A stretch of 31,402 nucleotides of DNA from a virus. The notes under the pieces are model-generated. The model saw only the letters and a list, made by a program, of their open reading frames with translations, was not told the origin of the DNA and made no database searches. Below, in pieces: positions 378 to 20,247 of this stretch (the first letter of the stretch is position 1; every line of letters begins with the position of its first letter). The translations under genes and the position numbers were made by a program. Location: IMG/VR virus record IMGVR_UViG_3300020020_000122, positions 1 to 31,402 of that record; one strand, given 5' to 3'.

Positions 378-410
378 TTGCGTTGTGGCTGTCGACCATA
401 TATCTATGGC
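378..410 (+). promoter_or_regulatory. Predicted integrase promoter with family A palindrome
   Basis: A -35-like TTGCGT (378-383), a 17-base spacer and a -10-like TATCTA (401-406) point toward the integrase. The -10 lies inside an imperfect 16-bp palindrome at 395-410 (ACCATAT-AT-CTATGGC), one of the family A sites repeated in other control regions of the window. The rest of the gap 343-570 shows no gene. The attP core should lie near the integrase but cannot be recognised without a bacterial junction. Confidence 0.45.
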
Positions 411-570
411 ACCTAGCTACTCCTGATAACGCCTAAAGCCAATAGACAAAGCCTTTCTTGGCTATCGGTATTTCAGGAGCTAGCGTTAACCCAGGGGTGC
501 TAAACACCGTTTGCCCCCTTTCAACCCTTCGCCCCCCAAGGGTGAGACGACAGCGAAAAGGATCAATGAA

Positions 571-1671
571 ATGGCCCAGATTAAGCCGATCAGCAGAGAC
601 AAGTGGCAGGTGGCGGTTGACTACAAGGGTGTGCGCAAGAAGAAGACCATCATCGGCTCCAAGGCCCAGGCCCAGCAGTGGGGCCTGGACCGTGAGAAGG
701 AGATCGAGGCCACGGGCACGCTCGCCCCCGAGCTGAAGCTGACGTCGCTCGGTGAGTTGGTCGAAGCCTACGAGAAGGACATGGCGGCCAACGGCGTCCA
801 CTTCAGCCACACCAAGAGCTACAACCTGTTCAAGATCAGGGAGCAGATCGGCGCGATCGTCCTGTCGGCGCTCGGCAAGCAGGACGTGGTCGCCTACGGC
901 AAGAAGCTCGCCAAGACGCGCGGCCCCAACGGCGTCAAAGAACGCCTCAACTATCTCAGCAAGGCGCTGAAGTGGGGCAAGTCGCACAAGGACTATCCGC
1001 TACAGCCGCAGATCGATGCGGTGGCTAATGCCATCTCAGTGCTGGGCACCTACCGGCTGGTCGGTGATGCGGTGGCGCGCAACCGCTCAGTGAGCGACGC
1101 CGAGATCGATACCATCAAGGCTCAGTTCCAGACCATGCGCCGCTCCGACATCGACATGCCTGAGCTGGTCGACGTGCTGCGCGTCCTGCCGCTGCGTGTC
1201 GGTGAGCTGTGCAAGATCGAGTGGACCGATCTCCTCCCTGAGCTGCGGGCGGTCAAGATGAAGCGCAAGCATCCGACCAATCCCAACTTTGTGCAGATCG
1301 TGGCGCTGCCGGTGATCGGCGGCGTCGACACCTACGAGCTGATCGCTGGTCGGCCGCGCCATCTGGCGCGTCCCTTCCCGTACTCCTCCAAGACGGTGTC
1401 GAGCTACTTCTGGCTGGGCCACAAGATGGCTGGCGTGCAGGACATCCACCTGCATGATCTGCGCGCCCACGCCATCACCTGGCTGCGCGACAACGGCCTG
1501 CCGAAGGAACAGGCCAAGGCGCTCATGGGCCACAGCCGCGACAGCAAGGTGCTGGATGAAGTCTACACGCGCTTCTCGGCTGATCAGGTGCATGGCGCGA
1601 TCGAGCGCACCGGCATCGACAAGATGCAGCGTCGTCGCACGGGCGAAGTGGTGCCCCTACGCGCCGCCTAA
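571..1671 (+). CDS. int: Tyrosine-type site-specific integrase
   Basis: 366-residue tyrosine recombinase that would integrate and excise the phage genome at attP/attB. The catalytic set is visible: Arg209 in the LRVGEL motif, His295 and Arg298 in HDLR, His321 in LMGHS and the nucleophile Tyr332 (VYTRFS). The N-terminal about 150 residues hold the arm- and core-binding part. The ATG at 571 is preferred because AAGGA lies about nine bases upstream; an in-frame TTG at 511 would add 20 unlikely residues. It converges with the excisionase-like gene and overlaps it by four bases, so the two are opposed on the map as in many temperate phages. It is complete, with no broken motif. Confidence 0.95.
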   Translation: MAQIKPISRDKWQVAVDYKGVRKKKTIIGSKAQAQQWGLDREKEIEATGTLAPELKLTSLGELVEAYEKDMAANGVHFSHTKSYNLFKIREQIGAIVLSALGKQDVVAYGKKLAKTRGPNGVKERLNYLSKALKWGKSHKDYPLQPQIDAVANAISVLGTYRLVGDAVARNRSVSDAEIDTIKAQFQTMRRSDIDMPELVDVLRVLPLRVGELCKIEWTDLLPELRAVKMKRKHPTNPNFVQIVALPVIGGVDTYELIAGRPRHLARPFPYSSKTVSSYFWLGHKMAGVQDIHLHDLRAHAITWLRDNGLPKEQAKALMGHSRDSKVLDEVYTRFSADQVHGAIERTGIDKMQRRRTGEVVPLRAA

Positions 1672-1916
1672 GCCACCTTGTGCTTGCGCATGTAGCTCAG
1701 CACATCATCTTTGAAGAAGAGCCTCTTACCCCCGACACGCGAGTGCGGGGGTAATTCTTTGTCAGCCTTGTTCCACAGCGTCTTGACGTCGATGCCCCAG
1801 AGCGTCGCCAGCTCCTCCTGCGTCATCATCCCAAATTCGTCCAGCAGCCGCCGACGCGGGATCAGCGGGTCGACCTTGACGCGGTTGGGGCCTCTAGCGC
1901 GACGCTTCGGGGCCAT
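1668..1916 (-). CDS. Excisionase-like MerR/HTH_17-type DNA-binding protein
   Basis: 82-residue basic protein with an excisionase/MerR-like winged helix: MTQEELATLWGIDVKTLWNKADKELPPHSRVGGKRLFFKDDVLSYMRKHK. The GGKRLFFKDDVLSYM tail is the typical wing and second helix of the HTH_17 family. The start at 1916 has GGAGG five bases upstream; another ATG lies at 1928. Its end overlaps the end of the integrase gene on the other strand. It is the last gene of the leftward block that starts near 5557, so excision could be co-expressed with recombination genes. The family is fairly secure; the role as Xis is inferred from position and size. Confidence 0.75.
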   Translation of the reverse strand: MAPKRRARGPNRVKVDPLIPRRRLLDEFGMMTQEELATLWGIDVKTLWNKADKELPPHSRVGGKRLFFKDDVLSYMRKHKVA

Positions 1917-2421
1917 TCGTTCCTCCATCTAACGGCAGCGGCAACTGGTAGGGCTTGTAGCGCCAGACGATGCGACTATCGCGGCGCACCCCGGTGTCCT
2001 CGATCATCTTGTTCTGGCGAAGCTCATCAATCGGCGCTTCGGGCAAGTGAAGTGCCTGACACAGCTCGGGCTCAGTGAAGCCCTTTGGCCAGATGCTCCT
2101 GGCATAGTCGATCGGCGGCATTGGCGGACCGCCCAGCACCTTGGTTCCAAGATCAGTCAGGACGTAGGCGATCTGGGCGCGGCCGGTCGGGCCTGGGCGC
2201 GTCCCGAGTTGCACAATCCATCCGTCCTCGCGCATCGGCGCGAGGCGCGGCACGACGGAGATGGTCGACATCTCCAGGGCCAGTGATAACTCCCACCCAT
2301 TGCGCGGTGATTGCTCTTTCAGGGCCTGCAAGATGCCCAGCTTGATGGTGGTTGTGTCGATCGACCGGGCGGCCTCTTCGGACGTCGATGGGTCGGTATC
2401 GCGCCATGCTCCAATCGTCAT
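1894..2421 (-). CDS. Winged-helix DNA-binding protein
   Basis: 175 residues. Residues about 20-90 resemble a winged helix: ILQALKEQSPRNGWELS, then a recognition-like helix (TISVVPRLAPMREDGWIVQL) and a wing before YVLTDLGTKVL. The C-terminal half (FTEPELCQALHLPEAPIDELRQNKMI) may form a second small helical domain. The start at 2421 has a strong ribosome site (GAGGGG). A longer open frame to 2772 runs over the J-domain gene in another frame and is rejected. It overlaps the excisionase-like gene by 23 bases. A regulatory role is likely; the target is unknown. Confidence 0.7.
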   Translation of the reverse strand: MTIGAWRDTDPSTSEEAARSIDTTTIKLGILQALKEQSPRNGWELSLALEMSTISVVPRLAPMREDGWIVQLGTRPGPTGRAQIAYVLTDLGTKVLGGPPMPPIDYARSIWPKGFTEPELCQALHLPEAPIDELRQNKMIEDTGVRRDSRIVWRYKPYQLPLPLDGGTNGPEASR

Positions 2422-2437
2422 GTTCCCCTCCACTACG

Positions 2438-3007
2438 CTACTGCCCAAGCTCGGCACGGGCCTGGGTGATCGCTCGATTGAGATCGGCCATCGCGTCGTG
2501 CGATCCCCCAGGCACGTCGGGGTGCGCTGTCCGCGCCTTGCGGCGGAAGACGGCCTCGGCGTCGGCAAGGCTGGCGGGGTTATCGAGGATCGCATGCCAG
2601 TCGACGGCAGGTGGCGGCGGCAGTGCCGCGAAACCCGTGAATGTTGCGCGCACCAGCGCGAGCGTGCCGTGGCGCAGCTCGGTGCGGCGGGCCTCAATGA
2701 CGTGATGAACCGCCGTAAGATTTGCGGCGATGCTGTCATAGCGGTCGACCGGGATGGCGACGCTGATCGCATCCCAAACGAAATAGACCGCGACGCCAGG
2801 ATCAGCAGGTGAGGCGTTGCCCAGTGAGTAGTTTGAGCTGATCACCAGGCCCTGCAGTTGCTTGCCACTATCCTTGGCGAAGAGCCGCAGCGACGTCTGG
2901 ACCTTGTCGAGCGCGCTGCTCAGCGTGGTTTTGAAACTACCCTTCTCCCGTCGCGCCGAGCGCGGGAAGCCGGGAGGCCACGCCAGAGGGTAGGCCTGCG
3001 GCGTCAT
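2438..3007 (-). CDS. J-domain-containing phage protein
   Basis: 189 residues. The C-terminal part (about 135-189) has a J-domain core: VDWHAILDNP, then ADAEAVFRRKARTAHPDVPGG with the diagnostic HPD tripeptide at 162-164, then a closing helix. J domains stimulate the ATPase of Hsp70/DnaK chaperones, so this protein could recruit the host chaperone to replication or recombination complexes; that use is inference. The N-terminal about 130 residues are not recognised. The ribosome site GGAGG precedes the ATG, which overlaps the stop of the upstream gene by four bases. Confidence 0.75.
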   Translation of the reverse strand: MTPQAYPLAWPPGFPRSARREKGSFKTTLSSALDKVQTSLRLFAKDSGKQLQGLVISSNYSLGNASPADPGVAVYFVWDAISVAIPVDRYDSIAANLTAVHHVIEARRTELRHGTLALVRATFTGFAALPPPPAVDWHAILDNPASLADAEAVFRRKARTAHPDVPGGSHDAMADLNRAITQARAELGQ

Positions 3008-3195
3008 GCTACCTCCAGCTCATCCTCAAAGACGCGGATTTTTTGTTCCTTGCCGTCAGCAAAGTAGCGGACGTCGTACTCGATCGAGCTGATCATACCG
3101 ATGACATGCAGATCGACCACGCGCGCCTTCATGTCCTCCAGCGGCTTGATCAGGACGTGTGCGCCATAGTCAAATTTCGGCGTCGGCCATTTCAT
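3004..3195 (-). CDS. Small conserved-looking protein, possible SH3-like/KOW fold
   Basis: 63 residues starting MKWPTPKFDYGAHVLIKP. The pattern of short beta-like segments (HVLIK, ARVVDLHVIGMISS, YDVRYF, KIRVFEDELE) suggests a small SH3-like barrel, such as are used to bind nucleic acid or partners; this is only a fold impression. The ATG at 3195 overlaps the end of the ninB-like gene by four bases, indicating translational coupling. An upstream in-frame start at 3231 would overlap ninB much further and is rejected. Function unknown. Confidence 0.7.
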   Translation of the reverse strand: MKWPTPKFDYGAHVLIKPLEDMKARVVDLHVIGMISSIEYDVRYFADGKEQKIRVFEDELEVA

Positions 3196-3593
3196 GGCGG
3201 CCCCACGGCGATGCCGCGCATCGCGCACCACGCTTCGGTGTAGTCGAGCAGATCGGACATCTCGCGCTCAGCCAGATCACGAGTGTAGCGGCCGAGCATG
3301 ACGCGCTCGCCTTCAAGCCCGATCAGCAGGCGAGGCGGGCGGCCCTTCAGCGTGTGCCAACCGCAGAGAAATAGATCGTGCCAGCCTTGTTTGTCGTGGC
3401 GCGTGCCGCTCCAGGTATAATCGGTCTGAGCGACGGCGCCGCACGTCGCCCAAAACTTGCTCGATTGCTTAAGGGTGCGCGGCGGCGCGCCGATCTTCAC
3501 CAGCCAGCCATCAGGCGCCTGTGCGACCAGCTTGGTGGCGGCAAGCCGAGTGTGATCACCCGCAAGGCGGACCGTGGCGCCGTCGAGCGACAT
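3192..3593 (-). CDS. ninB: NinB-family recombination protein
   Basis: 133 residues matching the NinB (lambda Orf) family layout: AAT-KLVAQAPDGWLVKIGAPPRTL, then KQSSKFWATCGAVA, a tryptophan-rich middle (YTWSGTRHDKQGWHDLFLCG) and the final helix after YTRDLAEREMSDLLDYTEAW. NinB proteins bind single-stranded DNA and act as recombination mediators that can stand in for RecFOR. The gene sits beside an OB-like protein, a zinc-ribbon protein and a RecB/Cas4-like nuclease, which supports a phage recombination module. The ATG at 3593 overlaps the upstream stop by one base (TGATG). Confidence 0.8.
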   Translation of the reverse strand: MSLDGATVRLAGDHTRLAATKLVAQAPDGWLVKIGAPPRTLKQSSKFWATCGAVAQTDYTWSGTRHDKQGWHDLFLCGWHTLKGRPPRLLIGLEGERVMLGRYTRDLAEREMSDLLDYTEAWCAMRGIAVGPP

Positions 3594-4141
3594 CACGCGC
3601 CTTCAGGGAACGCGTCGGGCGTCGGCGGCTCTTCGGGCATACCCACCGACTGCGCGGGCGGCGGTGACGGGCGCGTCACCAATTCGTAGGCCTGACTGGC
3701 AGCCTGGGCCAGGATGGCGATCTCGCTGGCGGTGAATTTTCCGCTTCCCATGGCGCGGCCCACTACCCCGGTGACGAATATCATCCTGGCCTCGCCAGGG
3801 TCGCGCTGGCCGCCGCCCTGGATGAGGCGTGGCTGGAAGCCCGTATTTGGCCGCTGGCCGCCGTACGATCCGCCCTGGGTCTGTGGGCTCTGGCCGTACG
3901 ACCCACCCTGCTGGCCGCCTCCCTGGCCCTGCATGGGCCCAGTGGTGGCGATCGTCACCGTACGGGCGTCGGCGCCCTGGCCCCACGTCTGTTGCTTGGT
4001 CGCGATCTCGACCGTCATCCCACCACGGAACATGTTCAGCAGATCGGGTGGCACCCAGATCGTCTGGCCATCGGTGAGCTGCAGCTTGCCGTACTTGCGG
4101 CCAGGTTGGGGGAAAGTGACGTGTTGGATGCTTACCTGCAT
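3593..4141 (-). CDS. Predicted OB-fold single-strand-binding-like protein with Gly/Gln linker
   Basis: 182 residues. The first 70 (KYGKLQLTDGQTIWVP, MTVEIATKQQTW, ARTVTIATTG) alternate beta strands as in a compact OB fold. A low-complexity linker follows, rich in Gly, Gln, Ser and Tyr (GQGGGQQGGSYGQSPQ), then a helical C-terminal part and an acidic, proline-rich end (MPEEPPTPDAFPEGA). This resembles the plan of single-strand DNA-binding proteins, but the final residues are not the classic DDDIPF tip. Position next to ninB and a nuclease fits DNA binding in recombination. The start at 4141 has AGGAG upstream. The SSB-like role is inference. Confidence 0.6.
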   Translation of the reverse strand: MQVSIQHVTFPQPGRKYGKLQLTDGQTIWVPPDLLNMFRGGMTVEIATKQQTWGQGADARTVTIATTGPMQGQGGGQQGGSYGQSPQTQGGSYGGQRPNTGFQPRLIQGGGQRDPGEARMIFVTGVVGRAMGSGKFTASEIAILAQAASQAYELVTRPSPPPAQSVGMPEEPPTPDAFPEGA

Positions 4142-4320
4142 GACAGCTCCTCTAGACATTTCTGGCACGATGTCGGCACGCCCCTGGGCGGCATGAACAC
4201 CCGTCCGCAGCAGTCGCAGCACGCGCCGGTTTGCGACGGGCCCACGGCGTTGGCCTGTTCGGCAGCCACTTGATCGATGATCTCAGCGATGCGCTGATCG
4301 GATAGCGGAAGGCGGCTCAA
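4132..4320 (-). CDS. Small zinc-ribbon protein
   Basis: 62 residues. Two cysteine pairs make a probable zinc knuckle: CCDCCGRVF near residue 34 and SCQKC near residue 52. It starts with TTG (4320), preceded by GGGAGG and overlapping the upstream stop (TTGA). Its 3' end overlaps the start of the OB-like gene. It is probably an adaptor or nucleic-acid-binding protein of the recombination block; nothing more specific can be read. Confidence 0.65.
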   Translation of the reverse strand: MSRLPLSDQRIAEIIDQVAAEQANAVGPSQTGACCDCCGRVFMPPRGVPTSCQKCLEELSCR

Positions 4321-4604
4321 TTCAGCCTCCCTGGGCCATGCGATTTGTGCAGCAGCGTGTGGGACGGCGGGTGCTTCGCCTTCACGCTGGCCTTCGCCAA
4401 GGCCAGCGTGCTTTCCTTCTGGCCACAGGGATCACCTGAGCCGCAGATCGTTGAGACGCGATCGGGACTGCCGATTGGCCACAGCACCAGAGTGAAAGCG
4501 AAGTCGTTGCTGTCGAGGCCAGAGGCGGCGAGACTGTCACCGACTGACGCCGCAGCGAGCGTTAGAATTTCGGCCATGATGTCGCGTCTTACGTCGTCAG
4601 ACAT
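4317..4604 (-). CDS. Hypothetical protein
   Basis: 95 residues, not recognised. The N-terminal part is helical (DDVRRDIMAEILTLAAASVGDSLAASGL), followed by a strand-like stretch (FAFTLVLWPI) and a tail rich in Lys, His and Ser. It is placed in a tight leftward block: the start overlaps the end of the nuclease gene and the stop overlaps the TTG start of the zinc-ribbon gene. This supports it as a real coding sequence. No catalytic motif is visible. Confidence 0.6.
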   Translation of the reverse strand: MSDDVRRDIMAEILTLAAASVGDSLAASGLDSNDFAFTLVLWPIGSPDRVSTICGSGDPCGQKESTLALAKASVKAKHPPSHTLLHKSHGPGRLN

Positions 4605-5400
4605 TGGGCACCGCCTGCAGCCGCGTGTGGCTGGGCTCGCTCGGGACCGTGCGCGCGGCCTTGGACATCTGCACGACGGTCTTCATCGGTCCCCTGAAGT
4701 AAAAGCTTTCATAGTCGGGTGAGAACATCGACAGCGCGTCATGGCCATCGGTGACATGCACCAGCAGCGAGCGAATGGCGTGGCAGGCCTCGATCACGCG
4801 ATCGTAGGCGGTGGCGGCGTCGGTCGGAGTGATCTCGAAACGCATCCAGCGCTTTGGCGTGACGTAGGTCAGCGAGAACGGCACGCCATGAAACATGGAG
4901 TAGGCCGACACCTGCTCGACGTGGTTGGGGTCGGGCTTGCCGCCGTTCGGCATGCGCCAGGTGGTTTTGAGATCGGTGCCATGGTCGGGCCACACCCAGT
5001 CAGCGAAGCCCACCAAGGGCACCGAGATGCCAGGGATGGTGAGCGACATCCGAGCTTGCCGCTGCAGCGGCATCGGAAGGTCCGCGAAGGCGATCTTGGC
5101 TTGCGTCAGGAAGTCGGGAAGCGCGTCGTATTCCTTGGTCGCGTCGTCATCGACCACGCCCTGGGCGCAGGCGTCCCATTCATCCTGCATCGCCTTCGCG
5201 GCGGCCTCGGCGCCGAGATTGAACAGCAGCCGGTCGACGGCAGCCTCGACAGCTCGCCCACGCCATGCGCCTGGGCCGCTTTCGTCGGGTGCCTTGAGGA
5301 GATACTTGCCAATCCAGACGGCAGGAGCGTCGCGCCACAGGCGCAAGCTCGACGGGCTCAGATGGTCGATGCCGTGCCGTTCAAATGGGTCTATTGCCAT
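4597..5400 (-). CDS. PD-(D/E)XK nuclease, RecB/Cas4-like
   Basis: 267-residue predicted exonuclease of the PD-(D/E)XK superfamily. The N-terminus has the SPSSLRLWRDAP motif, then an RGRAVEAAVDRLL segment typical of RecB-like and Cas4-like phage nucleases. The active-site set is visible as GFADW (Asp134), TDLKTT (Asp143, Lys145) and HVEQVSAY (Gln163, Tyr167). Such enzymes resect DNA ends for single-strand annealing; here the neighbours NinB and an OB-like protein would provide mediator and binding functions. No C-terminal iron-sulphur cysteine cluster is seen, so this is not a full Cas4. It is preceded by a TTG-start gene whose stop lies inside its first codons. Confidence 0.8.
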   Translation of the reverse strand: MAIDPFERHGIDHLSPSSLRLWRDAPAVWIGKYLLKAPDESGPGAWRGRAVEAAVDRLLFNLGAEAAAKAMQDEWDACAQGVVDDDATKEYDALPDFLTQAKIAFADLPMPLQRQARMSLTIPGISVPLVGFADWVWPDHGTDLKTTWRMPNGGKPDPNHVEQVSAYSMFHGVPFSLTYVTPKRWMRFEITPTDAATAYDRVIEACHAIRSLLVHVTDGHDALSMFSPDYESFYFRGPMKTVVQMSKAARTVPSEPSHTRLQAVPNV

Positions 5401-5557: not shown

Positions 5558-5562
5558 TGCGC

Positions 5563-5675: not shown

Positions 5676-5704
5676 AGGGCCCCTACGCATTACGTAGGGG
5701 CCCT
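5676..5704. repeat. 12-bp inverted repeat spanning the repressor stop codon
   Basis: AGGGCCCCTACG (5676-5687) and CGTAGGGGCCCT (5693-5704) are perfectly complementary around a five-base loop that contains the stop codon of the repressor gene. No T-run follows on the minus strand, so it is not a classical intrinsic terminator. It could be an operator or a factor-dependent end. Confidence 0.5.
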
Positions 5705-6154
5705 GGACAACGCCTGCATCTTGACCTGGAAACAGGCCAGCGCCAGCCCGCGCTCGATCGTCTCCATGCCGATCGGACGGCCAGCAAAGCGTTCTGTGAT
5801 CATGGTCAGAACGGCATCACGGATTTCATCCATGTCGACTGGCTTGGGCGCCGACTTGACCATCTCGCACACTTGGCGGATTACTGCAGAGGTTTCCGTC
5901 ATCCCGGCCCCAGGCGCATGCGTGATCACCGCCAATGGCAAGCGAGAATGCGCTGGTAGGTGACGGTTGATCTCTTCAATCGACCAGTCGAGAAATTCCG
6001 CCATCGGCGCTATCTCGCTCTGCTGAATGTGTCGACGGCCAGCGATCATCTCATAGACGCGCGGCGCAGCGATACCCAAAGCTTTCGCCAACGCTGTCGG
6101 TGTTCTGCCCAATTCGCGCAACCGCGTCTTCAGCCACGGCATTTTTTCCTTCAT
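5690..6154 (-). CDS. Phage repressor-like XRE-family regulator
   Basis: 154 residues with an N-terminal XRE helix-turn-helix at about 15-45 (RTPTALAKALGIAAPRVYEMIAGRR) and a further helix (QQSEIAPMAEFLDWSIEEI). The C-terminal part is mainly helical and has no S24/LexA peptidase serine-lysine motif, so any induction would not be by self-cleavage. The ATG at 6154 follows an AAGGGG site. It is divergent from a Cro-like gene over a control region with palindromes, the standard arrangement of a phage immunity switch. Role as the main repressor is inferred from position. Confidence 0.75.
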   Translation of the reverse strand: MKEKMPWLKTRLRELGRTPTALAKALGIAAPRVYEMIAGRRHIQQSEIAPMAEFLDWSIEEINRHLPAHSRLPLAVITHAPGAGMTETSAVIRQVCEMVKSAPKPVDMDEIRDAVLTMITERFAGRPIGMETIERGLALACFQVKMQALSRAPT

Positions 6155-6187
6155 CCGACAACCCCTTAGTCCCCATTAACAGCATAA

Positions 6188-6202
6188 GAGTATGCCATAC
6201 TC
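6188..6202. promoter_or_regulatory. 15-bp palindrome, candidate operator of the switch
   Basis: GAGTATG-C-CATACTC is a perfect inverted repeat with a single central base. It covers the predicted -10 of a leftward promoter (minus-strand TTGCCT at 6223-6218, spacer 17-18, GTATGG/TATGGC near 6200-6194) that would express the repressor. Confidence 0.5.
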
Positions 6203-6407: not shown

Positions 6408-6656
6408 ATGGACCGAGCAGTCAGCCTGCCCAAGGCGGTCAAGCAATTCGGCGGATATTCCGAGCTGGCCCGTAGGCTCACCGCCTTCATAGGTGAAGAC
6501 GTCCCGCTTTCCACCGTCCATGGCTGGGCCAGACGCAAGAAGCTGCCGCACTGGCGGGCGCGCGAGATCGCCGCCCTGGCCAAGACCGAGAACATCGACG
6601 TCTTCAAGATGAAGAAGAAGCGTCGCACGCTGAGGGCTAAACGCAGGGTGAGCTAG
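6408..6656 (+). CDS. Cro-like HTH regulator
   Basis: 82-residue basic protein. Residues 8-57 match a Cro/YdaS-like helix-turn-helix: KAVKQFGGYSELARRL, then VPLSTVHGWARRKKLPHWRAREIAALA. The tail is strongly basic (KMKKKRRTLRAKRR). The ATG at 6408 has GGGGAGG upstream; the longer frame from 6342 is rejected because it has no ribosome site and starts inside the leader. First gene of the rightward early operon, opposite the repressor, so a Cro-like lytic regulator is the natural reading. Confidence 0.75.
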   Translation: MDRAVSLPKAVKQFGGYSELARRLTAFIGEDVPLSTVHGWARRKKLPHWRAREIAALAKTENIDVFKMKKKRRTLRAKRRVS

Positions 6657-7328: not shown

Positions 7329-7841
7329 GTGCGTGGGAAACGCGTCTATCGCGAGCATGCACTACAGATCGCTGTCGCGCACATGCTGCAGATCGTCCTG
7401 GACCCCACGAGAACGTGGTGGACGGCGATCGATCATGGCGTCGGCAAGCTCGGCGTAGTCGAGGCAGGCATCCGCAAGCGGCGTGGGGTGAAGCGCGGCC
7501 TGCCTGACTTCATGCTCATGGCCTACGCCACTTGGCCGACGCTGATCGGGATCGAGTTGAAGAGCGACAAGGGCGAGCTGAGCGAAGACCAGCTCGACGT
7601 CGCGGATGCGTGGGACGATATGGGTTTCCCGATCTATCTCGCGCGCTGCCAGGAAGACGTCAACGCGATCCTGGAGCATTGCAAATTCCCGATGTCGCAT
7701 CGGCTCCAGTTCTTTACCGAGGGGAAAGTCCATGCCTGTGCTCGCAGACTTGCGAAGGCTCGGCATCAACGTACGAGCCGTAGACGGAAACCAAAAAACC
7801 ACCTGCCCCTGGTGCTCGGCAACCCGCCGCAAGAAAACTGA
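7329..7841 (+). CDS. VRR-NUC domain nuclease
   Basis: 170 residues, GTG start. The VRR-NUC (PD-(D/E)XK) core is visible: KRGLPDFMLM with Asp60, then IGIELKSDKGELSEDQ with Glu76, Lys78 and Gln88. Family members cut branched or flap DNA such as Holliday junctions, so it may resolve replication or packaging intermediates. From about residue 135 the frame overlaps the next gene for 110 bases and becomes Arg/Lys-rich, so the tail may be only a by-product of the overlap. Lies four bases after the DnaA-like gene. Confidence 0.75.
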   Translation: MRGKRVYREHALQIAVAHMLQIVLDPTRTWWTAIDHGVGKLGVVEAGIRKRRGVKRGLPDFMLMAYATWPTLIGIELKSDKGELSEDQLDVADAWDDMGFPIYLARCQEDVNAILEHCKFPMSHRLQFFTEGKVHACARRLAKARHQRTSRRRKPKNHLPLVLGNPPQEN

Positions 7842-13232: not shown

Positions 13233-13269
13233 TTGACATCACTACGGAAGTGTGTCATAGATATATGGC
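13233..13269 (+). promoter_or_regulatory. Predicted promoter with family A palindrome over the -10
   Basis: TTGACA (13233-13238), exactly 17 bases, then CATAGA (13256-13261), reading into the gene at 13290. The -10 is covered by a family A site at 13254-13269 (GTCATAG-AT-ATATGGC). A protein bound there would block polymerase. Confidence 0.6.
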
Positions 13270-13289: not shown

Positions 13290-13589
13290 ATGGCTAAACG
13301 TCGTAAGCGTCGCTCACAGAAGAGCTTCGACATCCGGCTGGCGAAGGACTTGCGCGCCAAGCGCATCGTCTTCCTCCGCGAGCTGAGTGAGATGGTGAGC
13401 AACGCGGTGGGTGTACGCATCCGTTGCGTGTTCGCAGGCGGTGAGGTGGTCGTGCCCAAGCCGACCGCCAAGCGCAAGGGCAAGGTCGACCGCAAAACCG
13501 GGCACGTCGCTGGCTACGGCCAGGAACCGCCTGTCGATCACGAATTGAAGAGCGCGTCAGAATTACCGCACGAGCATATACCGTTTTAG
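13290..13589 (+). CDS. Small basic hypothetical protein
   Basis: 99 residues, very basic at the N-terminus (MAKRRKRRSQKSFDIRLAKDLRAKR), which suggests nucleic-acid binding. A short predicted strand-helix core follows (RIVFLRELSEMVSNAVGVRIRCVF), then a Lys/Gly-rich linker. Start at 13290 after GAGGAG. It is the first gene after the predicted promoter at 13233 and ends at the nested hairpins of 13588-13658. Function unknown. Confidence 0.6.
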   Translation: MAKRRKRRSQKSFDIRLAKDLRAKRIVFLRELSEMVSNAVGVRIRCVFAGGEVVVPKPTAKRKGKVDRKTGHVAGYGQEPPVDHELKSASELPHEHIPF

Positions 13590-13658
13590 TAGTACGATGA
13601 GCGCGGTGTGGGACCGCCCCGTACTACTGCCCCTGTCGCGGTGTGGCGCGACAGGGGC
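13588..13658 (+). other. Nested inverted repeats between two small genes
   Basis: AGTAGTAC (13588-13595) pairs with GTACTACT (13621-13628) and encloses GCGGT/ACCGC (13602-13616). Directly after, GCCCCTGTCGC (13629-13639) pairs with GCGACAGGGGC (13648-13658). No T-run follows, so this is probably a structured RNA, an attenuator or processing site rather than a simple terminator. Confidence 0.5.
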
Positions 13659-13686
13659 ATCACTACGTCAGCCCATGAGGAGCACA

Positions 13687-13911
13687 ATGAACCGCACGAC
13701 ACTCAAAGCAGCCGGTGAAGCCCTGTGGGGGCCGCACTATCGATCAGAGCTGGCACGCGCCTGCAGCGTCCATCTGCGCACGGCGATGCGGTGGGATCGT
13801 GGTGAAAGCGACATTCCCCAGAGCACCTGGGAAGTGCTGGCCGATCTACTCTTGGAGCGCAAGAAGCAGATCGACAAAGTCCTGAAGAAGATACCGGCAG
13901 GAGACGAGTGA
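13687..13911 (+). CDS. Small HTH protein, paralogue of the 17384 gene
   Basis: 74 residues. ALWGPHYRSELARACSVHLRTAMRWDRGE is a helix-turn-helix, followed by a helix (STWEVLADLLLERKKQIDKVL). The same pattern appears in the minus-strand gene at 17384-17614 (ALYGPFWQSELARAIDVAPRTVRRWAAGE, IWAELSALLTER), so the two are paralogues. The start at 13687 follows GAGGAGC; the frame upstream to 13597 runs through the hairpin region and is rejected. Likely a small DNA-binding regulator. Confidence 0.7.
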   Translation: MNRTTLKAAGEALWGPHYRSELARACSVHLRTAMRWDRGESDIPQSTWEVLADLLLERKKQIDKVLKKIPAGDE

Positions 13912-15202: not shown

Positions 15203-15582
15203 GGTGGCTGACCTAATTTTTCACGATAGCCCTGTATGTCGGCCTCGCGCATCCATAGCTCACCCATCGCGCTGCCGCCGAGTGGCCGCCAACCATGACG
15301 CTCCAGGTAGCCCTGAAACCGGCCGGTCGGTGAGCTGATGGCGACGCCCATGCCGCGCCGATCGAGATGGGCCAGGAGCCTGGAGAAGGTGCCTGTCCCT
15401 GGATGGCGTGCGGTGAGCAGCGGCAGGATCACCATGTTGCCCTGGCGGGCGATGAAACTGTCGGGCAGCCAGTCCTTCAACCGGAACCCGAACTTCACCC
15501 CGACCGACGTGCCTGGCTCGACCAGGGTGAAGCCCATATCGAGGTAGAGCGATCGGCACCAGATGGGAAATCGTTCGGTCAT
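15199..15582 (-). CDS. GNAT-like acetyltransferase-fold protein
   Basis: 127 residues. The C-terminal half resembles a GNAT core: a strand (NMVILPLLTAR), a loop and helix in the acetyl-CoA region (GTGTFSRLLAHLDRRGMGVAI), then GRFQGYLERHGWRPLGG, like the YERHGF motif of that superfamily, and a final strand (GELWMREAD). The acetyl-CoA loop is not a classic Q/RxxGxG/A, so activity is uncertain. Substrate unknown; a phage may use it to modify a host or phage protein. Confidence 0.5.
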   Translation of the reverse strand: MTERFPIWCRSLYLDMGFTLVEPGTSVGVKFGFRLKDWLPDSFIARQGNMVILPLLTARHPGTGTFSRLLAHLDRRGMGVAISSPTGRFQGYLERHGWRPLGGSAMGELWMREADIQGYREKLGQPP

Positions 15583-15809
15583 AGCTTGCCCTGTAGGCTG
15601 CGGGCGTGGCGTAGGGCGTTCAGCGCGATGTCACGGGCCACGATCTTGGCTCTGGCGCCGAGCGCTCGCCGTGTGAACCACTCCCTGCGAATGTCGCGGA
15701 CGTCATAGTTATATGGCGCGTCGTGCAGCACGTCTCTGATCGCCTTGGGCAGCCTGTCGAAGAGCTGCAGGCGTTCAGCAGCGGTGAGACCGTCTTCACC
15801 TTTTTCCAT
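15579..15809 (-). CDS. Hypothetical helical protein
   Basis: 76 residues, helical and basic: TAAERLQLFDRLPKAIRDVLHDAPYNYDVRDIRREWFTRRALG, then AKIVARDIALNALRHAR. Overlaps on both sides with neighbouring genes. A family A-like palindrome (GTCATAG-TT-ATATGGC, 15702-15717) lies inside it at codons for YNYD. Function unknown. Confidence 0.6.
   Translation of the reverse strand: MEKGEDGLTAAERLQLFDRLPKAIRDVLHDAPYNYDVRDIRREWFTRRALGARAKIVARDIALNALRHARSLQGKL
15702..15717. promoter_or_regulatory. Family A-like palindrome inside a gene
   Basis: GTCATAG-TT-ATATGGC has the same arms as the site at 13254, but lies within the 15579 gene. May be chance or an intragenic site. Confidence 0.25.
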
Positions 15810-15978: not shown

Positions 15979-16001
15979 TTTCCATGCTCATCGATATGGT
16001 T

Positions 16002-16181
16002 CTATTTGCTCTTGAAATAACCTACCCAGAAACTCATCGAGGTGTGATTGACTGGCGGGTTGGCCGGTGGATTGCAGCGTAGGCGGGGTGTGTACCAGCT
16101 ATTGTCCCACCAGACGTAGAGCCATCGCCGTGGCCATATCGGCACGGCCAGCAGCACGATTGCATGTTTAGGCAGCATCAT
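16002..16181 (-). CDS. Small membrane-anchored protein
   Basis: 59 residues. A hydrophobic N-terminus (HAIVLLAVPIW) is followed by an aromatic, basic part (RRWLYVWWDNSWYTPRLRCNPPANPP) and ends VGYFKSK. The start at 16181 has GAGGAG upstream. Probably exported or membrane-bound; function unknown. Confidence 0.45.
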   Translation of the reverse strand: MMLPKHAIVLLAVPIWPRRWLYVWWDNSWYTPRLRCNPPANPPVNHTSMSFWVGYFKSK

Positions 16182-16322
16182 TGCTAGCTCCTCCGTCGAA
16201 ACCTCGGCGCCGTGGGTCACCATTGGCGTTTGGGGGAGTGACCACTTATCGAGGGGAGAACGGCACCGAGGTCCCACGACTTACTTGGCTTTGCGTTTGC
16301 GGTATGCCTCACCTCCCTTCGA
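16182..16322. other. Short gap without a convincing gene
   Basis: A minus-strand frame of 31 codons with a GTG start (16312-16217) exists, but its ribosome site touches the start codon and the sequence is not protein-like. Nothing else is seen. Confidence 0.4.
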
Positions 16323-16505
16323 TCAAGGTTCAACCACATAGAGCTGTTCAGGATCGCTGGCGCCCGTGATCTGATCGCGCACCATCTGGCGGTCTGCAGG
16401 GTCGGCCTCGCTCCAGCTCATCCGGTTCTGCTCGCCACTGCCCAGTGGCGTGTGTTCAAAGAGCTTGATCGCCAGCAGCTCGACCAGCATTGCATGTGTG
16501 TCCAT
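16323..16505 (-). CDS. Hypothetical protein
   Basis: 60 residues: an N-terminal helix (HAMLVELLAIKLFEHTPLG) and an acidic, helical second half (SEADPADRQMVRDQITGASDPEQL). Starts just before the small membrane protein gene ends. Not recognised. Confidence 0.55.
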   Translation of the reverse strand: MDTHAMLVELLAIKLFEHTPLGSGEQNRMSWSEADPADRQMVRDQITGASDPEQLYVVEP

Positions 16506-16508
16506 CGG

Positions 16509-16643
16509 TTACCTCCAGATCAGCAGGTAGGCGGTGTACGCCACGCCGCTCCACAGCAACAGGCTCAATGGGACGGTGACGACCAGGGTGCGCCAGCTCG
16601 GGCGCCAGATCGGGCGCCCGGTCATGACGGCGGGGAATTTCAT
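16509..16643 (-). CDS. Tiny single-pass membrane protein
   Basis: 44 residues with a basic N-terminus (MTGRPIWRPSWR) and one membrane segment (TLVVTVPLSLLLWSGVAYTAYLLIW). The ATG overlaps the upstream stop (ATGA). The longer frame to 16769 runs over the neighbouring gene and is rejected. Function unknown. Confidence 0.5.
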   Translation of the reverse strand: MKFPAVMTGRPIWRPSWRTLVVTVPLSLLLWSGVAYTAYLLIWR

Positions 16644-16816
16644 TTGACTACCTCCCACGTCCAGCCTTTGCCTTTGCACACCGCCACGAATGTCTTGCCG
16701 TCGAGGCCCATGAGCGACGATCGCAAGATCGGCGCGCAAATGATGATATGGCCATCGCGAGCGACGCAACCAGCGCTGAACGGCTGGCCTCGATAGAGGC
16801 CTTCAACGCTGATCAG
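16640..16816 (-). CDS. Hypothetical protein, start uncertain
   Basis: About 58 residues: ISVEGLYRGQPFSAGCVARD, then GHIIICAPILRSSLMGLDGK and TFVAVCKGKGWTWEVVK. The beta-rich pattern looks protein-like, but no ATG or GTG lies at the right place. A CTG two bases after the upstream stop is the nearest candidate; the only ATG (16915) would overlap the preceding gene by almost 100 bases. Confidence 0.4.
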   Translation of the reverse strand: MISVEGLYRGQPFSAGCVARDGHIIICAPILRSSLMGLDGKTFVAVCKGKGWTWEVVK

Positions 16817-16817
16817 C

Positions 16818-17018
16818 TTATCGCCGCCTCTTGCGACGCTTGGTGGCCTCGGCTTGCTTGACGAGCTTGTCATAGTCGGACAGCTCCCCGTTGGTCGGAT
16901 AGATGCGCCGCTCACAGCCGACGCAGAGATGCTTCAGGAAGCTGTCGGTGCAGAGCGCGATGACGCCATCCTTGGTGTAGCAAGGCGTCATGTCGCTCCT
17001 GGCATACTGGCATTTCAT
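16818..17018 (-). CDS. Small Cys-rich protein with basic tail
   Basis: 66 residues: MKCQYARSDMTPCYTKDGVI, then LCTDSFLKHLCVGCERRIYP, four or five cysteines suited to a zinc site, followed by a basic tail (KRRKRRR). Its ATG overlaps the stop of the upstream gene by four bases. The longer frame to 17180 is rejected (Arg/His-rich shadow). Possible nucleic-acid-binding protein. Confidence 0.55.
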   Translation of the reverse strand: MKCQYARSDMTPCYTKDGVIALCTDSFLKHLCVGCERRIYPTNGELSDYDKLVKQAEATKRRKRRR

Positions 17019-17221
17019 GCGGCGGGCTCTGGCGGTGGCGGGTCGACCAGGAGCGTGACGTAGCGCCAATCGCTCCAGGCGGCGAGGATGCTGCTCTTGC
17101 CCAGGATCAGAATGCCATCCTGGATATCGATGTCGTCGGCCTCGATGTCGGTCGTGTCGGTGGCGGTGACGACACGCCATTTCTTGGGCGCTGGCTTGGT
17201 GGTCTTGCCTGGCTTGGCCAT
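17015..17221 (-). CDS. Hypothetical protein
   Basis: 68 residues: a Lys/Pro-rich head (MAKPGKTTKPAPKK), then a beta-rich core (WRVVTATDTTDIEADDIDIQ, GILILGKSSILAAW, WRYVTLLVDPPPPE). Start at 17221, just after the ACGT-rich region. Upstream in-frame start at 17281 would translate the repeats and is rejected. Not recognised. Confidence 0.5.
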   Translation of the reverse strand: MAKPGKTTKPAPKKWRVVTATDTTDIEADDIDIQDGILILGKSSILAAWSDWRYVTLLVDPPPPEPAA

Positions 17222-17231
17222 GGTCTGCTCC

Positions 17232-17405
17232 CGACGTGGACGTAGACGCGTACCGTAAGCGTAGGCGTGGGCGTACGTCAACCTACGCCAACGTGGACGC
17301 AGACGTGCGAACGTAGACGTGGACGGCGGACGTCAACGTGGACGTAGAGCGCTGGACGTGGACGTGAGCGTAGGCATCGAGCGTCAACGTAGATGTGGAC
17401 GTGGC
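17232..17405. repeat. Degenerate six-base repeat region rich in ACGT
   Basis: Direct count gives 14 ACGT tetranucleotides between 17234 and 17403, most as GACGTG or GACGTA units that often sit six or twelve bases apart. The right edge enters the 3' end of the HTH gene. It is probably a protein-binding array or an origin-like element; it contains no gene. See findings. Confidence 0.6.
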
Positions 17406-17614
17406 ATCTGCGTACGCAGACCGCGCAATGTGACTTCGCGCTCGGTGAGCAGCGCGCTCAGCTCGGCCCAGATGCCAGGCGGCACGCGGTTCTCGCCCGC
17501 CGCCCAGCGGCGCACCGTGCGCGGGGCGACGTCGATCGCCCGCGCTAGCTCGCTCTGCCAGAACGGCCCATACAGGGCCGTTCCGACACGCGCCAAATAT
17601 TCGTGGTCACTCAT
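17384..17614 (-). CDS. Small HTH protein, paralogue of the 13687 gene
   Basis: 76 residues. ALYGPFWQSELARAIDVAPRTVRRWAAGE is a helix-turn-helix, followed by IWAELSALLTER. It aligns position by position with the protein at 13687. The ATG overlaps the stop of the 17611 gene (ATGA). The ACGT-rich repeat region begins inside its 3' end, so it may bind that array; this is inference. Confidence 0.7.
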   Translation of the reverse strand: MSDHEYLARVGTALYGPFWQSELARAIDVAPRTVRRWAAGENRVPPGIWAELSALLTEREVTLRGLRTQMPRPHLR

Positions 17615-17811
17615 TTGGGCATGGCATCATAGACCACGGTCCCGACAAGCGAATGAATGGCCATGACTTCAATACGGTCCGCCGCATTGGGCAGCCTGTC
17701 GGCTAGCGCGTATAGGCGTGTCTGCACATCGGCCAGCGTGGTGGCCATGGCATCTAGCTTGCTGGCCATATCCAACATGGCCGCGTCTTTGTCGCTCAGT
17801 TTGATGTTCAT
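17611..17811 (-). CDS. Hypothetical coiled-coil-like protein
   Basis: 66 residues with heptad-like hydrophobic spacing: KDAAMLDMASKLDAMATTLADVQTRLYALADRL, then IEVMAIHSLVGTVVYDAM. Probably a short coiled coil. No family recognised. Confidence 0.6.
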   Translation of the reverse strand: MNIKLSDKDAAMLDMASKLDAMATTLADVQTRLYALADRLPNAADRIEVMAIHSLVGTVVYDAMPK

Positions 17812-17814
17812 GGC

Positions 17815-18270
17815 CTAAGCCTCCTCTTCGCGCTTGGCGTCTTGTTCGGCCTGATACTCGCGTTCCCGTTCGGCCGCATGTTCGGCCATGCTGTCGGCCG
17901 CATACCACGCGTCACGCTCCTCCGCGTATAGGTCAAAGTCGACACTAGACGCCATGCCCTTGCCCATGGTCCAGCCAGCGAGGAACCCGCGACCGCGCGG
18001 CAGACGCAATACGCAAGCGGTAATGGTCTGATCCTGCATATCGTCGCAGTACCAACCATTGACGCGTGCGGGCCTCTCACACGAGCGCAAGCGAAACGTG
18101 GCATCGCCCGTTGTGCCCTGGTCATCGCTGGCATAGTAGCCACGGCCTAGGCCACGGCCTGCAGTCGGGACCGTGTACATATACGGGCCGACAACCTTAC
18201 GGTTTTGAACGCGCAACGGCAGGGGCCTGCGCCAATTGTGAAGGTAGATTGTGGAGCCTGTTAGGGTCAT
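17815..18270 (-). CDS. Hypothetical phage protein
   Basis: 151 residues. The N-terminal part is beta-rich with aromatic residues (STIYLHNWRRPLPLRVQNRK, VGPYMYTVPTAGRGLGRGYYASDD) and the C-terminal end is charged and helical (EHAAEREREYQAEQDAKREEEA). Start at 18270; another ATG lies at 18282. It resembles a conserved phage protein of unknown function. Confidence 0.6.
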   Translation of the reverse strand: MTLTGSTIYLHNWRRPLPLRVQNRKVVGPYMYTVPTAGRGLGRGYYASDDQGTTGDATFRLRSCERPARVNGWYCDDMQDQTITACVLRLPRGRGFLAGWTMGKGMASSVDFDLYAEERDAWYAADSMAEHAAEREREYQAEQDAKREEEA

Positions 18271-18278
18271 GGCGTGCC

Positions 18279-18485
18279 TCACAGGGGCCAGTCGACGGCG
18301 CGCAACGCCTTGCCGATTGCGCTAGAGCCGCGTTCCCACACGCGCGCCGTGGCAGTGTCCTGCCAGTTGTGGCGCAAGTGGTTTGCCTTTTCGTCGCAGA
18401 TGATCTCTAGCGCGGTCAATACCGCCACCATGCCTTGGCTATCAATCATAGCCTCTAGCGCTGTCTCGATTTCTTTGTGTGTCAT
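18279..18485 (-). CDS. Hypothetical protein, first gene of leftward accessory operon
   Basis: 68 residues, helical: MTHKEIETALEAMIDSQGMVAVLTALEIICDEKANHLRHNW, then SSAIGKALRAVDWPL. Read from the promoter at 18558-18530 with a leader of about 40 bases and an AAAGGGA ribosome site. Not recognised. Confidence 0.6.
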   Translation of the reverse strand: MTHKEIETALEAMIDSQGMVAVLTALEIICDEKANHLRHNWQDTATARVWERGSSAIGKALRAVDWPL

Positions 18486-18521
18486 AGGGTCTTTCCCTTT
18501 CAGCCGGGCCTAATTGCCCTT

Positions 18522-18558
18522 GCCATACCTATATGGCATTGCCTTTTGCGTAGGTCAA
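18522..18558 (-). promoter_or_regulatory. Predicted leftward promoter with family A palindrome
   Basis: Minus-strand TTGACC (18558-18553), exactly 17 bases, then CATATA (18535-18530). The -10 lies in GCCATAC-CT-ATATGGC (18522-18537). Same geometry as the 13233 promoter. Drives the 18485-14266 operon. Confidence 0.6.
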
Positions 18559-18611
18559 GCGAACACCGGCTAACTATTTAAGAAAACATTAGAGAATTTT
18601 CGACCTTGGGC

Positions 18612-18647
18612 TTGCCATAGGTCTATGGCGTGCCATATAACCATGGC
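18612..18647 (+). promoter_or_regulatory. Predicted rightward promoter with two family A palindromes
   Basis: TTGCCA (18612-18617), 17 bases, ATATAA (18635-18640). A perfect site GCCATAG-GT-CTATGGC (18614-18629) overlaps the -35 and an imperfect one, GCCATAT-AA-CCATGGC (18632-18647), covers the -10; their centres are 18 bases apart. Drives the gene at 18677, divergent from the 18530 promoter. Confidence 0.6.
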
Positions 18648-18676
18648 AGGCAATCAAGCCGCTAGGGGTTAGACCA

Positions 18677-18907
18677 ATGCTGAATGAGACCGCGATTAAC
18701 GCCATTGCCGTGTGCGCCATGATGGAAAACTTTTGGGAGATGAATAGCGCAAGCCGCAAAGACTTCTATGGACTGAAGCCGCGCACGCGTCGCGGCTATG
18801 CGCGCTTGATGCTGAAAGAGCGGGCCCGGTTTTTTAATCAGGGCGATGACGAAGCGGCTTTCCGTCTTCGCATTATGTGGCGCACGGATACCAATGTGCC
18901 GGTCTAG
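18677..18907 (+). CDS. Hypothetical protein
   Basis: 76 residues: an N-terminal hydrophobic helix (NETAINAIAVCAMMENFWEM), then a basic part (RKDFYGLKPRTRRGYARLMLKERARFF) and a short end. First gene after the predicted promoter at 18612. No family recognised. Confidence 0.6.
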   Translation: MLNETAINAIAVCAMMENFWEMNSASRKDFYGLKPRTRRGYARLMLKERARFFNQGDDEAAFRLRIMWRTDTNVPV

Positions 18908-18925
18908 TCGACCATCGCCCCACAA

Positions 18926-18954
18926 AGGCCCGCACGCGAAAGCGTAGCGGGCCT
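18926..18954 (+). other. Stable hairpin with GAAA tetraloop
   Basis: AGGCCCGC (18926-18933) pairs with GCGGGCCT (18947-18954), continued by ACGC/GCGT with a one-base bulge and a GAAA loop. No T-run follows, so it may be an attenuator or an RNA-protection structure before the 19015 gene. Confidence 0.5.
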
Positions 18955-19014
18955 AAGGCAGTAGGAGGCTCTGGAATAGTCCGGGACCTACAGGGCAATA
19001 GGAGGCCCTACGCA

Positions 19015-19221
19015 ATGACCAAGTCAGTATCTATGCAGCATCGCCACTACGTTTTGATTGCTGAGGCAATCGCATCTCTCCCCGTCTATCGCGGCAATGA
19101 TTGCCGCATCGCTGTCGCCAATCACTTTGCCGACAAGCTGGCCAACACAAACCCGCGTTTCGATCGTGGTCGGTTCATCGCGTGCGCCATTGGCGCGCCG
19201 TGCACGGGGAGGGACGCCTAA
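19015..19221 (+). CDS. Conserved small phage protein
   Basis: 68 residues: HRHYVLIAEAIASLPVYRGN, then IAVANHFADKLANTNPRFDRGRFIACAIG. The HFADKLANTNPRFDRGRF stretch matches a small family common in alphaproteobacterial phages, function unknown. Start at 19015 with AGGAGG upstream. Confidence 0.7.
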   Translation: MTKSVSMQHRHYVLIAEAIASLPVYRGNDCRIAVANHFADKLANTNPRFDRGRFIACAIGAPCTGRDA

Positions 19222-19286
19222 TGGGCACGATCATCTTCTGTGTCGTGGCCTTCCTGGTCATCGGCCTGATTTACAACAATCACTGA
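19221..19286 (+). CDS. 21-residue membrane peptide
   Basis: ATG overlaps the previous stop (TAATG). The peptide is one hydrophobic segment (IIFCVVAFLVIGLIY) and NNH. Possibly a real micro-membrane protein or only a coupling frame; no family. Confidence 0.4.
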   Translation: MGTIIFCVVAFLVIGLIYNNH

Positions 19287-19297
19287 CAGGTGATGCG

Positions 19298-19747
19298 ATG
19301 AAGCATTGGAACCCGTACGGCGCATACCTTGGCAATGGTGGCGCGTGGGAAAAGGTCTCGACCACGACACTTGCCAGCCTGCGTTCGCCCGCCCGCTATT
19401 GGGTAATCAGTGACGCGCAATTGAAGCGTGATCTCCGGCCGCGCACGATCAAAGACGTGTACCGCGAAAACCGCGCCTTGCGCGGTATCGAGCGCAAGTA
19501 TGTGCCGCGCAATTTCGGTGAGACTGACAGCGGCGGGAATTTCGACGGCCTCGGGATAGACCGCCGCTCCCTACGGAGTGAGTATCTAGAATGGTGCGCG
19601 GCGCGTGGTCACGTTCCGCACCCCGCGTCGGTCGACAGCGATCATCCGCGCAACTGCCATCGTGAGAAGGCGCCTAGGCGCGACATCGATTTTCTGCATT
19701 CCGTTCCCACCCCTGCGACTGACTGGCCAATGAAGGAGGCCGCTTAA
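19298..19747 (+). CDS. Hypothetical phage protein
   Basis: 149 residues: an aromatic N-terminus (HWNPYGAYLGNGGAWEKVS), then a basic region (AQLKRDLRPRTIKDVYRENRALRGIERKYV) and a His/Pro-rich end. Start at 19298 after a CAGGTGATGCG stretch; longer frame from 19058 rejected as a shadow of the 19015 gene. Not recognised. Confidence 0.6.
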   Translation: MKHWNPYGAYLGNGGAWEKVSTTTLASLRSPARYWVISDAQLKRDLRPRTIKDVYRENRALRGIERKYVPRNFGETDSGGNFDGLGIDRRSLRSEYLEWCAARGHVPHPASVDSDHPRNCHREKAPRRDIDFLHSVPTPATDWPMKEAA

Positions 19748-19749
19748 CC

Positions 19750-20160
19750 ATGATCACGCAAGCAATCCACGTTCGGTTTCTGGGGCCGACAAACTTTCGC
19801 GGCTCACGCTACATTGCCAAGTGTTCGGCAGGCATAAAAATGTGGCAGGCCGACCACGCGCTAAACCCGTCTGAGAATGCACGCAAGGCCGCTGAGGCCT
19901 TGCGTGATCATCTGCAATGGAACACGGCACGGTATGGTGATCTGGTCGGCGGAGGCCTGCCGGACGGTTCTTATGTGTTCGTTTTCAGCGATCGGCCACG
20001 CGTGGCGCGCGAGGCCTTGGCCAGTGTCCGCCGCATGGTGCCTTGGCTGGCGAGGATGGTGGCCGATAGTTGGCACAAAGACTGCGCCAATCCCAATGAT
20101 GCGGTACAGGCTCTGAATGAGGCCTGCAGCCTGCTAAACCAGGAGGGAATATCGCCATAG
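19750..20160 (+). CDS. Hypothetical phage protein
   Basis: 136 residues: N-terminal strands (ITQAIHVRFLGPTNFRGSRYIAKC), then helices (SENARKAAEALRDHLQWN) and a long helical end (PNDAVQALNEACSLLNQEG). Such pairs with the preceding gene occur in other alphaproteobacterial phages. The stop codon lies inside a family A palindrome (20154-20169), so a bound protein there could affect readthrough into the terminator. Confidence 0.6.
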   Translation: MITQAIHVRFLGPTNFRGSRYIAKCSAGIKMWQADHALNPSENARKAAEALRDHLQWNTARYGDLVGGGLPDGSYVFVFSDRPRVAREALASVRRMVPWLARMVADSWHKDCANPNDAVQALNEACSLLNQEGISP

Positions 20161-20169
20161 CTCTATGTC
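20154..20169. promoter_or_regulatory. Family A palindrome at a stop codon
   Basis: GCCATAG-CT-CTATGTC, one mismatch in the arms. It covers the stop codon of the 19750 gene and lies 19 bases before a terminator. No matching -35 is seen. Confidence 0.4.
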
Positions 20170-20187
20170 ATCTCACGAAATTATTAC

Positions 20188-20219
20188 ACGGGGCCGCATC
20201 GTCGGCCCCGTTGCCTTTT
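20188..20219 (+). terminator. Rho-independent terminator
   Basis: ACGGGGCCG (20188-20196) pairs with CGGCCCCGT (20203-20211), loop of six, then TGCCTTTT. Ends the operon that starts at 18677. Confidence 0.8.
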
Positions 20220-20247
20220 CGGGCTCTGGTCGCCATAGCTATATGCA
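20211..20247 (+). promoter_or_regulatory. Family A palindrome with weak promoter match
   Basis: GCCATAG-CT-ATATGCA at 20232-20247. A TTGCCT (20211-20216) lies exactly 17 bases before CATAGC (20234-20239), the same geometry as the other family A promoters, but it overlaps the terminator tail. Confidence 0.4.

Follow-up and report, generated by a model that had tools for sequence, protein, structure and literature searches.

A 16-bp palindrome (family A, GnCAYA-N4-TRTGnC) recurs at promoters of the IMG/VR virus record IMGVR_UViG_3300020020_000122, analysed over 31,402 nucleotides (the window; W in comparisons), and with a probability of about 0.5 we regard it as the 16-bp operator of a phage helix-turn-helix (HTH) repressor, most likely the Aca2-like protein encoded at 13687 (HTH 13687). 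The arrangement is probably an Aca-type autorepressor circuit extended over several cargo operons. Enrichment of the palindrome in gaps between genes, its presence at orthologous places in five relatives and its position within promoters were all counted for this reading, as was a variable gene between the A site and HTH 13687, an organisation resembling acr-aca operons. The place of HTH 17384, a paralogue, behind the 18522 promoter in the three phages with that region and the profile and fold similarity of HTH 13687 to Aca2 were counted for it as well. From these sequence data we infer the binding of HTH 13687 to family A, as well as repression, its timing and the function of the cargo.

The window was compared with five diverged IMG/VR relatives: G001 (IMGVR_UViG_3300045996_002109), G003 (3300005937_000045), G004 (3300045141_000293), G005 (3300036832_000955) and G006 (3300045284_000225). 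L040 and L059 denote coordinates for G001 and G006, respectively, and L015 is a near-identical fragment of the window found in database scans. These six phages form a small set of fragmentary records, with proteins mostly 45-75% identical between window and relatives; the gene map and gene starts are approximate, and promoters were called by consensus only.

The original prediction had listed seven family A sites, all in control gaps except one touching a stop codon. All seven exist (Table 1), far above chance in shuffled sequence, and the exception is 20154, whose GCCATAG includes the TAG of gene 19750-20160. Searching for GCCATAGNNCTATGGC with up to three mismatches gave 10 places in the window (1.22 expected from dinucleotide shuffles), a number reached in 0 of 100 shuffles. 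The proposed consensus GCCATAG-NN-CTATGGC was perfect at 18614, the only place where its 14 fixed bases matched exactly; GCCATA-N4-TATGGC is the better core. Within the gaps, 8.6% of the window by the approximate gene map, the core occurred five times with no more than a single mismatch, against 0.003 in shuffled gaps. A weight matrix built from the seven sites scored them at 19-24, and shuffled windows yielded 0.07 places at 15 or above. Although derived from window sites alone, this matrix ranked first in G001, G003, G004 and G006 sites that fall in orthologous gaps, and its second match in G005 (12937) lay at the expected gap; the top G005 match (32158) looks like coding sequence and was discarded. 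An eighth match in the window, as good as the seven, lies within a gene at 15702 (score 21.3). Since the G006 homologue of the gene around 15702 retains the protein sequence (APYN-D) but not the palindrome, we consider that match probably a coincidence. When IMG/VR was searched with the exact pattern, 31 stretches matched; besides L015, only a few of them contained another good site, and the single matches are thus probably mostly due to chance.

Table 1 Features of the window and matrix-ranked family A sites of its relatives.
Position	Strand	Feature	Sequence	Remarks
395..410	+	Family A match	ACCATATATCTATGGC	Over predicted integrase promoter (TTGCGT 378-383, TATCTA 401-406)
5690..6154	-	CI-like HTH protein, alternative candidate binder		HTH kept in five phages; gene surrounded by family B sites
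6181..6196	-	Weak A-like site	AGCATAAGAGTATGCC	Before CI-like gene; A-like in W, G001, G003
13254..13269	+	Family A operator (putative)	GTCATAGATATATGGC	-10 CATAGA inside, 17 bp after TTGACA (13233-13238)
13290..13589	+	99-aa cargo gene		Follows site 13254 and precedes HTH 13687; no family match; replaced or missing here in relatives
13687..13911	+	74-aa HTH protein, Aca2/YdiL-like		Behind A site in 6/6 phages; PDB profile and fold matches
15702..15717	.	Intragenic family A match	GTCATAGTTATATGGC	Inside gene 15579-15809(-); missed in the original prediction
17384..17614	-	76-aa HTH paralogue		In leftward operon of 18522 promoter; phrog_12690 E 8.8e-16
18522..18537	-	Family A operator (putative)	GCCATACCTATATGGC	Leftward promoter TTGACC(18558-18553)-17-CATATA
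18614..18629	+	Family A operator (putative), perfect palindrome	GCCATAGGTCTATGGC	Overlaps -35 TTGCCA (18612-18617)
18632..18647	+	Family A operator (putative)	GCCATATAACCATGGC	-10 CATATA (18634-18639) inside
18677..18907	+	76-aa cargo gene		Behind 18614/18632; G001 homologue across, behind leftward A promoter
20154..20169	.	Family A site	GCCATAGCTCTATGTC	Contains stop codon TAG of gene 19750-20160; without promoter
20232..20247	.	Family A site	GCCATAGCTATATGCA	Past terminator, upstream of conserved TTGACA near 20265
5621, 5684, 6198, 13210, 20253, 21096		Family B palindrome, TACG-N5-CGTA	Often TACGCAATGCGTA	
G001 21303, 21192, 22637; G003 43346, 43329; G004 14664, 14604; G006 (L059) 448, 6481		Matrix-ranked family A sites of relatives		

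The gap before the HTH 13687 operon is the sole gap with A sites in all six phages, and in G003, G004, G005 and G006 it holds paired A sites 17 bp apart. The remaining sites are shared by fewer phages. Site 18522 is kept in G001 (21192) and G006 (L059 6481), that is, in three of the three phages having those genes. Its neighbour 18614 is kept at G001 21285, and 18632 has an identical sequence at G001 21303, with the tandem offset by 18 bp in both phages; the tandem is degenerate in G006, leaving it kept in two phages. Sites 20154 (G001 22637, L059 7687) and 20232 (G001 22716, L059 7766) flank a terminator hairpin at a spacing of 78, 79 and 79 bp in the three phages having those genes, and a stop codon lies within the former each time (TAG, TAA, TAG). 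Integration had been proposed as a further target. Site 395 is a strong matrix match, yet its palindrome is not kept in G001, the only relative comparable at the integrase, which retains the integrase promoter (TTGACATGTGGCTGTCGATCAGATATTC); for this reason the integrase was set aside as a regulon member. The idea of a dispersed operator set over promoters is supported by orthologous gaps in five relatives and by the cargo promoters, where the -35/-10 geometry is kept; its integration part is not supported. Control of the late region, also proposed, is supported in part: 20154 and 20232 are conserved in three phages, but both sites flank the terminator, upstream of a conserved TTGAC -35.

The palindrome is embedded in the promoters in a recurrent manner. 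At 13254 the -10 CATAGA occupies operator positions 3-8, TTGACA-17-CATAGA spanning 13233-13261; at 18522 (minus strand) CATATA follows TTGACC by 17 bp, and at 18632 CATATA follows TTGCCA by 16 bp, this -35 being overlapped by the first tandem site, 18614. The geometry recurs in relatives (TTGACG-17-CACATA at G001 13479, TTGCAA-17-CATATA at G001 21192, TTGACA-17-CATACT at G006 527 and TTGACC-17-CATATA at G006 6481), and in their 17-bp pairs TTGACA or TGGACA overlaps the first site with a likely -10 in the second. The prediction of one shared promoter geometry therefore stands at 13254, 18522(-) and 18612/18632, but is weak at 20232, where the supposed -35 varies (TTGCCT, ATGCCT, AAGCAT) and a TTGAC(A/G) further downstream is conserved, and fails at 20154. 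Known Aca operators are inverted repeats within core promoters, sometimes two per promoter (PMC9410906; PMC8434428). As expected of an Aca autorepressor, the promoter of the HTH 13687 operon has an inverted repeat inside its -35/-10 region in the window, likewise in G001 and G006, and pairs are present in G003-G006. Between the divergent A promoters, the window and G001 also agree letter for letter over a long AT-rich block (TATTTAAGAAAACATTAG, then GAATTTTCG; 18575-18602, L040 9346-9373), perhaps UP elements or a site for another protein.

Profiles built from HTH 13687 matched Aca2 (E 3.5e-4) and YdiL (E 6.7e-4), more weakly in another profile run, and its match to Pfam Aca2_YdiL (E 0.01) was below the cut-off. 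The AlphaFold model (predicted local distance difference test score, pLDDT, 92) has helices at 2-14, 18-25, 30-38 and 45-68 and ends with the fourth, close to the first four published for Aca2 (2-13, 16-24, 28-38 and 43-70, in a protein of 116 aa; PMC8434428). Foldseek with this model ranked Aca2, Aca10 and AcrIF25 first with weak E values (0.07 at best), and the VIA Z of this group was about 7-8.5, slightly above that of other HTH proteins. Arg31 is invariant in the alignment, at a position near the DNA-contacting Arg30 of Aca2. The C-terminal dimerisation domain of Aca2 is missing from HTH 13687 (74 vs 116 aa). Because of this absence, and because no anti-CRISPR gene was identified, we filed the circuit as Aca-like rather than as an Aca2 family member.

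Behind the universal A site, HTH 13687 is the common gene of the operon, and what lies between site and HTH differs per phage: 99 aa in the window, nothing in G001, 135 aa in G003, 60 aa and other small open reading frames in G004, 156 aa in G005 and a 9-codon vestige in G006. All six phages thus have, as in Aca systems, a small HTH protein in a presumably self-controlled operon, behind small variable genes. In G005, HTH 13687 is most diverged and the A half-site drifts too (GGCATA, GACATA). Just 5' of HTH 13687 there are two strong adjacent RNA hairpins (window 13586-13660, L059 598-682, L040 1625-1706; z -3.8 in the window, -4.7 in G006 and -5.4 in G001) with compensatory changes in the second stem, which may serve in attenuation or in the control of translation.

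Since the A operator is built round the -10 at cargo promoters, a bound protein would exclude RNA polymerase and shut off the cargo, and paired sites 17-18 bp apart would cover -35 and -10 alike. Once infection has begun, the A promoters would be active and drive early expression of the small cargo genes; HTH 13687, the product of one A operon, would then occupy all A sites, ending cargo expression. Repression through this common operator would reach the protein's own operon, the divergent pair of cargo operons at 18.5 kb and, ahead of the late genes, the sites flanking the terminator; the A pair there, which precedes the terminase genes, may tune the late-region boundary.

Several observations weigh against this reading. 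Family A is absent from the distant HTH relatives in phages Aval, Mannheimia 535AP2, Morganella Mecenats66 and Edwardsiella EPP-1; the best Foldseek E value is weak and VIA Z is close to what unrelated HTH proteins give; sites 20154 and 20232 are not accounted for by simple blocking of a -10; none of the cargo genes is of known function; and the A-like site before the CI gene in the window, G001 and G003 leaves room for CI. As a separate observation, Mannheimia 535AP2 and Edwardsiella EPP-1 carry different palindromes upstream, in the promoter region.

Five HTH proteins had been put forward as binders, among which HTH 13687 emerged as the best candidate: for HTH 4 (4-342) no counterpart was found among the relatives, so it was discarded, HTH 17384 was found in only three phages, and CI (5690) and its divergently oriented neighbour at 6408 lie at a different palindrome. 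The CI-like protein offers the strongest alternative, although we judge it unlikely: family A would be the operator of this immunity repressor, silencing cargo operons and the late-region boundary in the prophage, like phages with many dispersed repressor sites. CI residues 1-41, containing the HTH, are identical between the window and G001, the two phages with the most alike A sites, and A-like sites precede cI in the window, G001 and G003. Those observations, for the first two phages, had initially led us to favour CI, which was demoted after G004 and G005 were compared and family B was found. In G004 and G005, which retain the CI HTH and recognition helix, no A-like site is evident before the gene, so that a family A operator at cI is not general among relatives, and in G005 the A half-site drifts and the CI recognition helix does not. 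Moreover, family B occupies the places where a CI operator is expected, namely the leftward operon, just 3' of cI and the cI promoter, as well as a position before the large terminase, with matching places in relatives. In the window, G001, G003 and G004 it is found at the leftward operon and directly 3' of cI; at the cI promoter it has one mismatch in the window, G001 and G003 and, judged by eye, also in G004 and G005; in G003 and G004 it further precedes the 6408 homologue. Because TACG-N5-CGTA marks CI's own region, family B is likelier than family A to be the CI operator, and CI is probably, on sequence grounds, the family B repressor.

CI proteins of G003-G005 differ from that of the window in their C-terminal part; in G003 this part resembles the 16-3 C repressor (E 3e-7), which makes CI look like an immunity repressor. 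Stand-alone relatives of the window CI's C-terminal part occur in G005 (13700-13876, a small gene directly 3' of the HTH 13687 homologue) and as a match in G003 (7567-7722, downstream of cI). No CI homologue was present in the phage collection searched, and no prophage turned up when genome contigs were scanned with CI and helicase.

We give a still smaller chance to the two Aca-like paralogues, 13687 and 17384, sharing family A, or to HTH 17384 serving the sites at 18.5-20.2 kb. HTH 17384 does sit behind the 18522 promoter in all three phages having that region, within its operon, and is confined to the three phages that have the 18.5-20.2 kb sites (counterparts in G001 and G006 only), but three other phages have A sites and lack HTH 17384, and its recognition helix (VAPRTVRRW) differs from that of HTH 13687 (VHLRTAMRW). 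The least probable explanation, in which the palindrome is promoter sequence (-10 CATATA/CATAGA) or a host protein site rather than an operator, draws on the -10 within the motif, part of which promoter constraint by itself would preserve, but dyad symmetry reaches past the -10, 20154 is conserved in three phages without a promoter, and the 17-18 bp offsets between paired sites recur.

Cargo proteins gave no match to a family of known function in Pfam, NCBIfam, PHROG or PADLOC, and no anti-CRISPR was recognised among them. Cargo slots swap: the 18677 gene is rightward in the window and leftward at G001 21159-20932, and the 13290 gene has a homologue at G001 3227-3526, behind the integrase gene. 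Imperfect GACGTGGACGTAGACG-type repeats lie in the cargo region of the window (17225-17405) and likewise in G001 (about 19130-19280). An Rfam int-alpA RNA (RF02996, E 8.6e-7) was detected in G006 (L059 4952-5022, minus strand) and not found in the window. The large terminase (21119-22891) shares 66% identity with its counterpart in Sinorhizobium phage phiM5, whose record notes mention LUZ24-like phages, whereas the early region of the window looks temperate. From the phiM5-like terminase and the 16-3-like repressor part, the host is likely an alphaproteobacterium.

Comparison with known systems places HTH 13687 nearest to the Aca autorepressors of bacteria and their phages (Aca1-Aca10, among them Aca2 from Pectobacterium phage ZF40), which share a small HTH protein behind small variable genes and inverted repeats in the core promoter and, for Aca2, similarity in profile and fold. 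Here, in contrast, the C-terminal Aca2 domain and a recognised anti-CRISPR gene are missing, and the operator also stands at other promoters and round a terminator. Bacterial Acas have so far been described at their own acr-aca promoter, which an operator common to several cargo operons would extend. We tentatively entertain, as a possibility that has the odds against it, a bacteriophage Aca-type repressor with a multi-operon regulon, in which one palindrome stands at dispersed divergent promoters, small cargo genes are swapped among slots and phages, and the operator thus marks anti-defence cargo invisible to homology searches. If true, the shared operator would be a search tool for undiscovered bacteriophage anti-defence genes, as done in archaeal viruses, and it also connects an unstudied family of HTH proteins (phrog_12690/phrog_3626) with a DNA site in a way that can be tested directly. 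The Aca8 early regulon of the archaeal virus SIRV2 (PMC11065993) is similar in that numerous scattered early operons, made up of small genes lacking annotation, have one regulatory sequence in common and an Aca has been proposed to repress them, but it uses an archaeal TATA/BRE promoter and a winged HTH (wHTH) protein instead of the sigma70-type promoter and Aca2-like HTH of the bacteriophage. Rhizobium phage 16-3 C repressor resembles the G003 CI-like protein in its C-terminal part; that of the window CI is different and shorter, with family B as its likely operator. Finally, the stoperators of Cluster A mycobacteriophages (L5; PMC6550527) are likewise many sites scattered genome-wide for a phage-encoded repressor, but they are asymmetric and mostly off promoters, whereas family A comprises a small number of palindromes, most of them at promoters, which sets it apart from stoperators.

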